From assembly GCF_001270265.1 (NCBI RefSeq), contig NZ_LGAP01000002.1:618001-682000 (forward strand): a DNA stretch of 64,000 bases, in the 5' to 3' direction. Positions 9,020 through 56,876 of this stretch are shown here, one piece after another (within the stretch, counting starts at the first letter, position 1; every line of letters begins with the position of its first letter). The position numbers were made by a program, and so were the translations under genes. The notes below the pieces were generated by a model. That model was not told the origin of the DNA. It was given only the letters and a program-made list of their open reading frames with translations, and did not search any database. This stretch comes from Ensifer adhaerens (lineage in GTDB: Bacteria > Pseudomonadota > Alphaproteobacteria > Rhizobiales > Rhizobiaceae).

Positions 9020-9064
9020 ATGACAAATGCACGCAACATTTCGATCTGGTGGTGGGCTCGCTGA
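9020..9064 (+). CDS. trpL: trp leader peptide (14 residues)
   Basis: The frame encodes [14 protein letters not shown] and then TGA. The three consecutive Trp codons (TGGTGGTGG, 9049-9057) are the sensing element of ribosome-mediated attenuation. The S. meliloti peptide is remembered as [14 protein letters not shown], so only two or three residues differ. In that species the released peptide (peTrpL) also has reported trans roles. No ribosome site precedes it, consistent with leaderless translation. Confidence 0.93.
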   Translation: [14 protein letters not shown]

Positions 9065-9100
9065 GGCGGCCTTGACCAGTCATGCGTGATTGAGACATGA

Positions 9101-9130
9101 AGCCGCCCGGAGATTTCGAGGCGGCTTTTT
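9101..9130 (+). terminator. trp attenuator terminator
   Basis: AGCCGCC (9101-9107) pairs with GGCGGCT (9120-9126), followed by T residues. It sits between trpL and trpE(G). Confidence 0.85.
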
Positions 9131-9177
9131 CGTATTCTGGCCGCGTGGGAAAACCGGGCTTTTACGGAGCGAGACGA

Positions 9178-27006: not shown

Positions 27007-27567
27007 ATGAAAAAGCACGACCTCGTCTATCTGACCGAAGACGCGTCCCATGACGCAGCCATCGAAATCATCAACGAAGAAGCCTTTGGCCCCGGCCGGT
27101 TTGCACGGGCGGCTGCGCGTATCCGCGAACAGGGTCCGCATGATCGGTCGCTGTCTTTTATTTGCACCGACAATGGCGAGACGATTGCCTCGGTCCGGAT
27201 GACGCCCGTGATGGCCGGTTCGATCAAGGGTCACCTGCTTGGGCCGCTTGCGGTGCGGCCGTCGCACAAGAACATGGGCATCGGCCGGGAACTCGTGCGC
27301 ATCGCCGTCGAGGCCGCCCGGCGGAAGGGATCACACGCCGTCATCCTCGTCGGCGACCCACCCTATTATCAGCCGCTCGGTTTTGAGAAGGTCCGTTACG
27401 CGGCGCTGGAATTTCCAGGCCCGGTCGATCCGGCACGGGTGCTGGTGGTGCCGATGGCAGACGGTGTGCATGCCGGCCTTTCCGGTGTCATCGGCTGGCG
27501 GGATGATGCGGCGGCCCACGGTGCAACTGCATCGGAGGCTGATATCGAACTGGCGCTTGCCGTCTGA
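27007..27567 (+). CDS. GNAT N-acetyltransferase (YhbS-like)
   Basis: A 186-residue acetyltransferase. LGPLAVRPSHKNMGIGRELVRIAVEAAR is the acetyl-CoA-binding motif A (xxGxG), and DPPYYQPLGFEKV is motif B. The order fits YhbS-like proteins, which acetylate unknown amines or proteins. It stands alone between the divergent GST gene and a convergent broken acetyltransferase gene. Confidence 0.9.
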   Translation: MKKHDLVYLTEDASHDAAIEIINEEAFGPGRFARAAARIREQGPHDRSLSFICTDNGETIASVRMTPVMAGSIKGHLLGPLAVRPSHKNMGIGRELVRIAVEAARRKGSHAVILVGDPPYYQPLGFEKVRYAALEFPGPVDPARVLVVPMADGVHAGLSGVIGWRDDAAAHGATASEADIELALAV

Positions 27568-27588: not shown

Positions 27589-28106
27589 CTAAGCCAGCCG
27601 TTTCTTCAGGAAGACCCGGCTGCGGCCCGGCGGGAAGTCGGGCAGCTCGCCGAAGGCCTCGTAGCCCTGGCGTTCATAGGCGCGCCGGGCTTGCGGGTTG
27701 AACGTGTCGATCCAAGCGCCGTGGCAGCCGCGGCGAACGGCCTCTTCTTCGGCCGCCGCCAGCAGTTTGCCCGCCAGGCCCTGTCCGCGCAGGTCTTCCG
27801 GTAGCCACAGCCATTGCACGAACAGCCAGCCCCAGGCGGTGTAGCCGCTGAGCCCTCCGCGTTTTCCCTCGAGGTCGGGACCGCCGACGAGCACCGCCAG
27901 CGCCCGCCGCTCGGATGGCCCGACATCGGAGGCGTTGAAGGCCGTCAGCCCGTTGCTGATGGCCTACAGCGCCGCGCGTCTTATCAGACGCGCAAAGGTC
28001 GCTGTAGCACTTTGAACTGCTGCATGTTTTTACCCTTAAATCGGATACGATTTAAGGAAACATGCAGTAGTGCTGCGGCCGGCGGTGCGTCGGTGATCTC
28101 GAACAT
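27589..28106 (-). pseudogene. GNAT acetyltransferase gene split by a RIME1-like repeat
   Basis: The 5' piece begins at ATG 28106 with AGGAG 5 bases before it and encodes MFEITDAPPAAAL. It then enters the repeat at 27964-28067 and stops at 27984. The 3' piece (from 27963) continues AISNGLTAFNASDVGPSERR and reaches the GNAT motif LRGQGLAGKLLAAAEEEAVRRG. Removing exactly 104 bases joins the pieces in one frame of 137 codons. The 3' piece alone could start at GTG 27894. The ATG lies 9 bases after the GH5 stop, so it was probably the second gene of that operon. Confidence 0.8.
27964..28067. repeat. RIME1-like element, copy A
   Basis: Two palindromes lie side by side. The first is CTACAGCG...CGCTGTAG, enclosing GCGCGTCT/AGACGCGC. 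The second is CTGCATGTTT...ACATGCAG with an inner CTTAAATCG/CGATTTAAG (28017-28067). The length and two-palindrome plan match RIME1, the Rhizobium-specific intergenic mosaic element; the name is from memory of that family. A second copy lies at 56694-56798. This copy lies inside an acetyltransferase gene. Confidence 0.85.
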
Positions 28107-29360: not shown

Positions 29361-29834
29361 TCAGGAACGGCGCATGCTGAAGACGTCAAGCCGGCTTTCA
29401 CCCACATCCTTTTCATCGAGCTGCCAGCCGCCGCGTTGGTAGAACGCGCGCTTCTGTGGCAAGGCGCAGAGATAAACGCTCTCGACGCCGGTGGCCAAAG
29501 CCGCTTGCGCCGCATGGCGAACGATGCTTGCCCCGATGCCCAGCCCACGAAAGGTAGGCTCTACCCAGACCGCCGCGACCCAGGGGCCAAGCGCCGGCCT
29601 CTCGTCCAGATCGGATTCGATCACCGATGCGGTACCGATGAAGGTCGCGCCGCGATGGGCGACGATGGCAAAAGGAATGTGATCGTCGCCAAGGCTGCCG
29701 GCAACCAGCTCGGCGATATGGCCGCGCGGAAAGCCGCGCGGCTCCCACCAGGCCCGCCAGACGCGGTCGGCGATATCATCCGCAAAATACGGCACATCGC
29801 GCAGGTTGCTGATGGCGAGGCTCGGATCGGTCAT
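29361..29834 (-). CDS. GNAT N-acetyltransferase
   Basis: A 157-residue acetyltransferase. WVAAVWVEPTFRGLGIGASIVRHAAQAA is motif A for acetyl-CoA, and ALPQKRAFYQRGGW is motif B. It overlaps the upstream 689-residue protein gene by 4 bases (ATGA), so it is the last gene of the MoxR operon and likely coupled in translation. The substrate is unknown, and it may not share function with the operon. Confidence 0.9.
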   Translation of the reverse strand: MTDPSLAISNLRDVPYFADDIADRVWRAWWEPRGFPRGHIAELVAGSLGDDHIPFAIVAHRGATFIGTASVIESDLDERPALGPWVAAVWVEPTFRGLGIGASIVRHAAQAALATGVESVYLCALPQKRAFYQRGGWQLDEKDVGESRLDVFSMRRS

Positions 29835-41282: not shown

Positions 41283-41464
41283 CGATAGTCCTCCGGTTCC
41301 TCCTGTCGAAGCTCCCGTGCGCCTTGGCCTGCCGGCCACTCGCGTGGAGCTTTAAAAGTCCGAACGGATTTTACGCCCAAATGGTTCCTGACTTAAGGAA
41401 TAACGGTGCTGGGCATCATTTGGGAGGAGCGACGGTCGTTCACGATCTAGCTCCATTTTTTTAC

Positions 41465-41508
41465 GCATTTCCGTACGGAAAACCGCTGCGCACTTTTCCT
41501 GGAAATGC
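41465..41508. repeat. nested-palindrome intergenic repeat
   Basis: GCATTTCC (41465-41472) pairs with GGAAATGC (41501-41508), and GGAAAA (41477-41482) pairs with TTTTCC (41494-41499) inside. This hairpin type recurs in rhizobial intergenic DNA, from memory. It touches the MaoC-like gene stop. Confidence 0.65.
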
Positions 41509-41509
41509 T

Positions 41510-41980
41510 CTAAACGAATTCGATCACCTTGCTTTCGAAACGGATCACCGCTTCGCCGTGCTGGTTTTCGCCTTCGCAGAGGATGCTGTTGATCCGCCAG
41601 CCCGGCCGCGACGTAAGGGTGCGGCTTTCGAGGAACGTCACGGCATAGGTCACGGTGTCGCCGGCATAGACCGGCTTCAGCCATCTGAGATCGCGGAACC
41701 CAGGCGAAGGGCCGAGCCTTGGTGCCTGCAGGCCTTCCGCTGCAAGCCGCCGTTGCTCATCCTTCCAGAACCGGACGAAACACTGCATCCATCCAGCGGA
41801 GGTATGCCAGCCGGACGCGCACAGGCCGCCAAAGAGCGAATGCCGGGCTTCCTCGGCGTCAAGATGGAAGGGCTGCGGATCGAAGTCGCGGGCGAAACGG
41901 ACGATATCCTCGGCCGTGAACGTCAGGCTGCCGATGACGGTCCTGCGGCCGGTCGCGTAAAACTCCTCCATCGTCATCAT
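41510..41980 (-). CDS. MaoC-like hotdog dehydratase domain protein
   Basis: A protein of about 156 residues with VRFARDFDPQPFHLDAEEAR (the hotdog Asp/His hydratase motif) and LRWLKPVYAGDTVTYAVTF. These proteins hydrate enoyl-CoA-like substrates; the true substrate is unknown. Its ATG at 41980 overlaps the stop of a paralogous gene (TGATG), so the two are coupled and probably form a heteromer. Termination occurs next to a palindromic repeat. Confidence 0.88.
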   Translation of the reverse strand: MMTMEEFYATGRRTVIGSLTFTAEDIVRFARDFDPQPFHLDAEEARHSLFGGLCASGWHTSAGWMQCFVRFWKDEQRRLAAEGLQAPRLGPSPGFRDLRWLKPVYAGDTVTYAVTFLESRTLTSRPGWRINSILCEGENQHGEAVIRFESKVIEFV

Positions 41981-50738: not shown

Positions 50739-50898
50739 GGGTAGACCTTTCTATGTCTAATTCTGGAGAGTTCATCCGCAATGGCAGAAGAACCGAAGCC
50801 GCATGGGCTTCATCCGCGTTGCCTCCAAGGGTGTCTACGCGGACGGGCGGTGCATAGACGAGATCGCCCGCAAATGCAAGCTTTGCCGCGGTTTTAAA

Positions 50899-50973
50899 GC
50901 ATGTCGCGCAAAAGTGCACTGCGGTTTTGCGATAACGACATGCGCGAAATCAAAGAGCGAAAGCGCGTCGCGG
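50899..50973. repeat. nested hairpin repeat, copy 1
   Basis: GCATGTCG (50899-50906) pairs with CGACATGC (50936-50943), and CGCAAAA (50907-50913) pairs with TTTTGCG (50925-50931). A conserved tail to about 50973 follows. It aligns over about 75 bases with 56805-56876, the copy beside the second RIME1-like element. The repeat type is common in rhizobial intergenic DNA (from memory). Confidence 0.75.
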
Positions 50974-56693: not shown

Positions 56694-56798
56694 CTGCAGC
56701 GCCGCGCGTCTAACTAGACGCGCAAAGATCGCTGTAGCACTTTGATTTACTGCACAATTTCATCCTTAATCAATTTCGATTTAAGGATGAAATTGTGC
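56694..56798. repeat. RIME1-like element, copy B
   Basis: Like copy A it has two palindromes. The first is CTGCAGCG...CGCTGTAG, enclosing GCGCGTCT/AGACGCGC. The second is a long stem (56751-56769 with 56781-56798). The first half is nearly identical to copy A, while the second differs in sequence but keeps its pairing. It is intergenic and directly followed by the nested hairpin repeat. Confidence 0.85.
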
Positions 56799-56804
56799 GG
56801 GAAG

Positions 56805-56876
56805 ACACGTCGCACAAAAGTGCGCAGCCGTTTTGCGACAACGACATGCGTGAAATCAAGCAGTTGAAGCGCGTTG
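56805..56876. repeat. nested hairpin repeat, copy 2
   Basis: It aligns with 50899-50973 at about four of five positions. ACACGTCG is opposite CGACATGC, and GCACAAAA opposite TTTTGCG, so the stems are less perfect here. It lies 7 bases after RIME1-like copy B, forming a mosaic. Confidence 0.7.

Follow-up and report, generated by a model that had tools for sequence, protein, structure and literature searches.

What split the acetyltransferase (GNAT) gene at positions 27589–28106 of the window, a 64,000-nucleotide stretch of a 7.46-Mb Ensifer adhaerens genome (99 contigs), and how did the intervening sequence get there? The start codon, an ATG at 28104–28106 on the minus strand, and 13 codons (5′ piece, 28068–28106, minus strand) lie on one side of a RIME1-like two-hairpin element (27964–28070, plus strand), with which the 5′ piece shares the element's last three bases. 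The remainder of the protein lies on the other side (3′ piece, 27589–27963, minus strand, 124 codons without an internal stop), an arrangement already described in an earlier note on this DNA and confirmed here. We regard the insertion as real: a repeat of a known kind has broken the gene and, from the sequence comparisons below, probably did so recently. The reading we favor, with a probability of about two in three, is that a RIME1-like copy broke the GNAT gene, that it did so by an exchange rule at Y-NN-R targets, and that a putative recombinase acting in trans moved it. The element family is known, and the interesting part is the target rule and the mover.

Alignment of 20 copies with their flanks showed conservation from 27964 to 28070, which lengthens the element from the 104 bp given earlier to 107 bp (CTACAGCG...CATGCAGTAG; evidence from nhmmer and copy count). 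A 107-position model built from 20 copies, the window's own included, matched this copy over positions 1–107 with an E-value of 3.5e-38. The fold of 27964–28067 has an energy of −53.7 kcal/mol, compared with −23.3 for shuffled sequences (z −10.3), and contains hairpin 1 (27964–28007, plus strand) and hairpin 2 (28020–28067, plus strand), the pairs of which are kept in most of 133 distinct copies; only pairs 18–23 and 64–97 change on both sides in numbers. A TA stands close to both ends of the element and is constant in the end logo and in the filled/empty pairs described below (27965–27966 and 28068–28069, plus strand). The element begins with CTAC or TTAC in 110 of 134 copies and ends with GTAG in 72 of 134. 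Immediately outside TACAG...CAGTA, 72 of 73 clean copies have C or T on the left and 71 have A or G on the right, and the outer bases of the window's copy, C at 27964 and G at 28070, are probably target-derived. Alignment columns 1 (the outer C/T) and 44 (an internal G/A at the foot of hairpin 1) covary (Fisher p 4.6e-8). Since column 1 is more closely tied to four other columns, this covariation probably reflects subfamily structure, and columns 1 and 44 stand alongside other RIME1 subfamily markers. A guide-like pairing of internal base 44 with the outer target base was considered and set aside, a by-eye tally against the empty sites being unconvincing.

RIME1 is reportedly the Rhizobium-specific intergenic mosaic element 1 of Osteras, Stanley and Finan (1995). 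Elements of this family measure approximately 100–110 bp, contain two large palindromes, and occur in high copy number in rhizobial hosts. The window's element, which we presume to belong here from these general features rather than by comparison with the published RIME1 sequence, is alike in size class and palindromes (a 107-bp conserved unit with two hairpins), copy number, and hosts, and differs in that the window's copy lies inside a reading frame. At least 40 near-full RIME1-like copies are present in the same genome, a figure drawn from the 40 scored candidates among 171 found at first look. Matches occur in all 16 genomes of the genus that were searched and in 442 plasmid records, 254 of them from Rhizobium and 161 from Sinorhizobium; the positions of RIME1 in G006 coincide with those in plasmid records of Ensifer canadensis. 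Rhizobial genomes are rich in hairpin repeats, and their spread becomes testable through an insertion that has broken a gene still whole in relatives, combined with 30 filled/empty pairs. In the accessible parts of PMC2573895 and PMC2245857, RIMEs are annotated as intergenic repeats, with “unknown function” in the former, and the accessible part of PMC2873474 describes some S. meliloti repeats as transcribed. The Brucella Bru-RS repeats, which were compared by description and not by sequence, are listed as palindromic and 103–105 bp long in the part of PMC2267715 that is available.

To place the insertion, the locus was compared across 16 Ensifer/Sinorhizobium genomes, that is, this genome and 15 others. 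The earlier note had proposed an insertion into a coding region and had named, as outcomes that would speak against it, the element at the same place in all relatives or a joined gene in none. The comparison gave the opposite result: the element is present at this position in 0 of the 15 other genomes, and the GNAT frame is open across the junction in 14 of them, with the flanks directly adjacent in G006, G007, G013, G004, and G015. The one remaining genome, G012, is uninformative: the 5′ part of its GNAT gene is gone, and window positions 27795–28105 have no counterpart. In G001 a stop occurs further along the gene, and in G013 a GTG stands in the place of the ATG. An element inside the GNAT gene was likewise found in none of 66 named loci from Ensifer and Sinorhizobium (L170, L175, and L176 being partial or poor matches), four of which have a RIME1-like match elsewhere within the locus.

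Deleting 27964–28067, as had been suggested, does produce an open frame of 137 codons, the sum of the window's two pieces, but this frame is not the ancestral one, as one codon was lost and six bases were replaced. The alignment with relatives showed a whole gene without the element, but of a different length: in 12 of the 15 other genomes it has 138 or 140 codons counted from the last Met, with one extra codon at the junction compared with the window's summed pieces. The 5′ piece reads MFEITDAPPAAAL here, compared with MFEITDAPPAEAL in G006. The target, which is CTCGAG in G006, GTCGAG in G007, and TTCAAG in G004, has become CTAC...GTAG. Six target bases were replaced without duplication, so the remark that no target duplication is evident holds, with the addition that six target bases were lost.

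Translation from the old start now ends at a stop within the element (27984–28106, minus strand, 40 residues). Because this start yields a peptide of at most 40 residues and the 3′ piece needs an internal start, the gene has most likely been inactivated and, judging from its sequence, not long ago. The 3′ piece still matches Pfam Acetyltransf_1 (E 5.5e-10); against NCBIfam the broken gene gave a single match far under the cut-off of the model, and PADLOC gave no match for it. No further lesions were found in the 3′ piece, and its pairwise dN/dS against eight relatives is 0.06–0.16 (0.06–0.15 among those relatives), in agreement with the recency proposed earlier. Such values are as expected from a recent break and from continued selection alike. 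That the gene remains alive, the 3′ piece being translated from GTG 27894 (the first listed restart, ORF 27589–27894) or from another internal start, is improbable. The 124 codons without an internal stop and the low dN/dS would suit this reading, but the product would be N-terminally truncated, GTG 27894 is not preceded, by eye, by a good ribosome site, and the low dN/dS is equally expected from a recent break. Three changes unique to this genome among nine compared fall, by eye, in the first 23 residues of the 3′ piece and are too few to weigh. Two further GNAT genes flank the broken one (27007–27567, plus strand, and 29361–29834, minus strand), both matching ArsN2 far under its NCBIfam cut-off, and between the GNAT genes lies a GH5-type gene (Cellulase, PF00150; 28115–29470, minus strand).

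To characterize target sites, we compared five Ensifer genomes over syntenic stretches of 0.4 to 0.8 Mb, 17 loose 3-kb RIME1 loci of G000, and two S. fredii megaplasmids over 350 kb apiece. The 165 RIME1 copies, each taken with flanks of 400 bases, gave after filtering 30 unique sites paired with an empty counterpart, 27 in Ensifer and 3 in Sinorhizobium fredii. Sites were dropped if the difference lay outside 1–8 (for example −3 and 14, or 0 and −7), if the junction offset exceeded 6, if the aligned flanks were shorter than 100 bases, or if they were repeat views of one site; among the 31 S. fredii copies, three lacked a counterpart in syntenic position and another three had junctions that were not clean. 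The earlier suggestion that such elements have moved within the genus is thereby substantiated, the element being present in one genome and missing from another at each of these 30 sites (three in S. fredii). The pairs fix the ends of the element, give its target preference, argue against RAYTs (see below), and point to strains in which movement might be detected. No account of RIME movement or target sites was found in the literature searched, in which few older journals are covered, and this is weak evidence of novelty.

The empty site holds four bases in 21 of the 30 cases, five in four, six in three (the window's included), and three in two. Four-base sites include CTCG, CTAG, CCGG (twice), CCAG, CTGG (twice), CTTG, CGAG, and CAGG, as well as TTCG, TTAG, TGGA, and TAAG; less regular ones include GAAA, GAAG, GAGG, CTAC, AGGG, and ATAA. 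Where TGGA was filled, the copy reads TTAC...GTAA, keeping the outer T and A of the target. The simplest reading is that Y-NN-R would become Y-TACAG...CAGTA-R. In a scan for direct repeats of 3–9 bp around the element, made at several boundary shifts and outside the element's own constant bases, no such repeat was found in more than 6 of 86 standard-end copies; the best 3- and 4-bp repeats lay slightly above shuffles (6 vs 1.9 and 4 vs 0.5, over 86 copies and many shifts). A preference for palindromic targets was tried as well and rejected: in 47 clean copies (79 examined), flank stems were no better than shuffled pairings (mean 2.02 vs 1.87, sd 0.14).

The constant TA at both ends raises the question of whether these footprints are disguised TA duplications. 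ERIC and Correia elements are TA-duplicating bacterial MITEs, and RIME1 resembles them, as well as a second repeat encountered here (family X, approximately 106 bp, with Y-TA...TA-R ends and, by eye, two hairpins), in its length of about 100 bp, its Y-TA...TA-R ends, and its preference for TA. The element could thus be an ordinary MITE, inserted by a TA-duplicating DDE transposase at Y-TA-R targets, whose empty sites have since been altered by the fast turnover of YTAR; we consider this possible, though rather unlikely. Both ends read Y-TA inward, and six of the 30 empty sites carry YTAR (in one case by an off-by-one reading, in another only in the second and third relatives), compared with 0.4% of random six-base contexts. 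This excess, far above chance, indicates that TA is preferred; TA is absent from the other 24 sites. In the Ensifer stretches, Y-TA-R contexts account for a mere 0.4% of six-base windows and are quickly gained and lost: only 47–61% of YTAR sites persist between the Ensifer species compared, and 78% when the two S. fredii plasmids are set side by side. Some of the changes that look like a loss of NN may therefore reflect turnover of the target. Against a control of YTAR sites matched for local identity and taken from coding and intergenic DNA alike, TA was kept in 5 of the 21 four-base sites, whereas 12.7 were expected (P 0.00045). One middle base differs in 10 of the 21 (7.2 expected), which leaves these sites a single change away from TA and suits duplication, but both differ in 6, compared with 1.1 expected (P 0.00075). 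Moreover, non-TA targets are common to three relatives each, namely CCGG in G000, G004, and G006 and CCAG in G000, G004, and G007. Because of this deficit and these shared targets, TA duplication probably does not explain all of the sites; as a general rule it appears unlikely, although it may have occurred at some sites. The three S. fredii pairs, at 94–96% identity, have CTAG, CTGG, and AGGG as their empty sites.

Family X bears on the same point. With ends of the same kind, it shows YTAR in 5 of 9 empty sites, as would suit TA duplication; these nine hold four bases in four cases, two in two, and five, six, and seven in one each, and provide a weak control. RIME1 differs from family X in YTAR (6 of 30 vs 5 of 9), a weak difference (Fisher p 0.085, or 0.032 without the off-by-one RIME1 site), and counts to that extent against TA duplication for RIME1. 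Family X may share the mover of RIME1. Unlike those of TA-duplicating MITEs, RIME1 sites in relatives are often without TA, beyond what turnover accounts for in the matched control.

A second familiar kind of mover is the RAYT. Insertion of IS200/IS605 elements is not known to remove target bases. That RIME1 is a REP-type element moved by a RAYT or another Y1 enzyme of the IS200/IS605 type is highly improbable. The two hairpins and the GTAG/CTAC ends do recall the GTAG tag of RAYT-linked REPs, but in the part of PMC3733652 available that tag is unpaired, and here it lies within or next to stems. That part distinguishes GTAG REPs from CGTC REPs, the latter mostly alphaproteobacterial and without a dedicated transposase. 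RIME1 is like the REPs and BIMEs that it describes in consisting of hairpin repeats, in forming dimers, and in having some intragenic copies; it differs in being a 107-bp unit with two large hairpins, REPs being hairpins of 20–40 bp with an unpaired tag. In contrast to REP/RAYT systems, no match to the Y1 transposase family PF01797 was found in the 16 genus genomes, whereas the same search was positive in 5 of 14 named control genomes. We take the RAYT/Y1 reading as largely refuted, unless the enzyme was lost or falls outside PF01797. A reverse relation, in which IS elements of S. meliloti enter REPs, is described in the accessible part of PMC1525189.

Genes with DDE_3 and DDE_Tnp_1 domains are present in all three genomes searched. 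At 16 DDE_3 (IS630-type) loci of 2.1–3.5 kb from these genomes, four RIME1/X models gave no match at E-values up to 10, and an IS630 parent transposon, in which a RIME1-like or X-like stretch would stand at such a locus, was set aside for these loci. In the Ensifer stretches and loci, a search for two element halves on either side of a transposase gene returned two candidate half-pairs, 0.8 and 3.9 kb apart. With no mobilizer found (PF01797 in 16 genomes; 16 DDE_3 loci), one may consider replication slippage or template switching, which would copy the element into sites with one common outer base per side. Strong hairpins, the absence of duplication, the small target loss, and one-base homology per side are all consistent with it, but the ends are sharply fixed (CTAC/TTAC at the start in 110/134 and GTAG at the end in 72/134), and the same four-base difference recurs in 21/30 sites; we give this explanation a low probability. 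Neither standard mover accounts well for the target footprint. Tentatively, and with considerable doubt, one may suppose that the element has an insertion chemistry of its own, in which TA is exchanged for the middle bases of Y-NN-R without duplication by an unrecognised non-RAYT enzyme. Its substrate would perhaps be a single strand in folded form or, by analogy with target-primed reverse transcription (a process in which small target losses occur), an RNA copy. The reverse transcriptase domain RVT_1 is found in 9 of the 16 genomes, G000, G006, and G012 among them, a distribution that speaks neither for nor against a reverse transcriptase as the mover.

Under the favored reading, insertion by the exchange rule, a non-autonomous RIME1-like copy of approximately 105 bp, with two hairpins and TA ends, would have inserted near GNAT codons 14–15 in the lineage of this genome and broken the gene. 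A putative recombinase would have moved the element in trans. The 30 filled/empty pairs suggest that Y-NN-R sites are preferred, a middle TA being favored and not required, and that the outer Y and R are kept as the element's TA...TA takes the place of the two middle bases. The old start would now yield a peptide of at most 40 residues, and the 3′ piece would need an internal start. The rule is not uniform in length: 9 of the 30 empty sites do not have four bases, and the window's site lost six.

The insertion is less exceptional than the earlier note supposed when it called a copy inside a coding region unusual. By a third-position substitution test, 3 of 35 compared sites lie in reading frames, and the window's site, which is included in the 35, makes a fourth intragenic case; the remaining 31 may lie within genes or between them. 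The test is blind at the window's site, which fails it because one side has no coding sequence. The intergenic copies may be survivors of selection.

Several further copies are worth recording. In G012:C1, from a close relative, a RIME1 copy at approximately 646.6 kb interrupts the four-base loop (CCAG when empty, as in three relatives) of a terminator-like hairpin, and at approximately 635.2–635.8 kb (L042) another lies just beyond the end of the GNAT gene without a 5′ part; near that same GNAT-end position, a RIME1-like match is seen in G010 and a copy of family X in G004. The window itself contains a second, incomplete RIME1-like copy at 56695–56787 (plus strand; model positions 2–95, E 2.9e-21), with a family X fragment at 56816–56874 (plus strand) 28 bases beyond it. 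Partial family X copies are found at 41420–41512 (minus strand) and 50895–50969 (plus strand). At gathering thresholds, Rfam gives a single match in the window, the RcsR1 sRNA (RF02552, 95.8 bits) at 9036–9131 on the plus strand.
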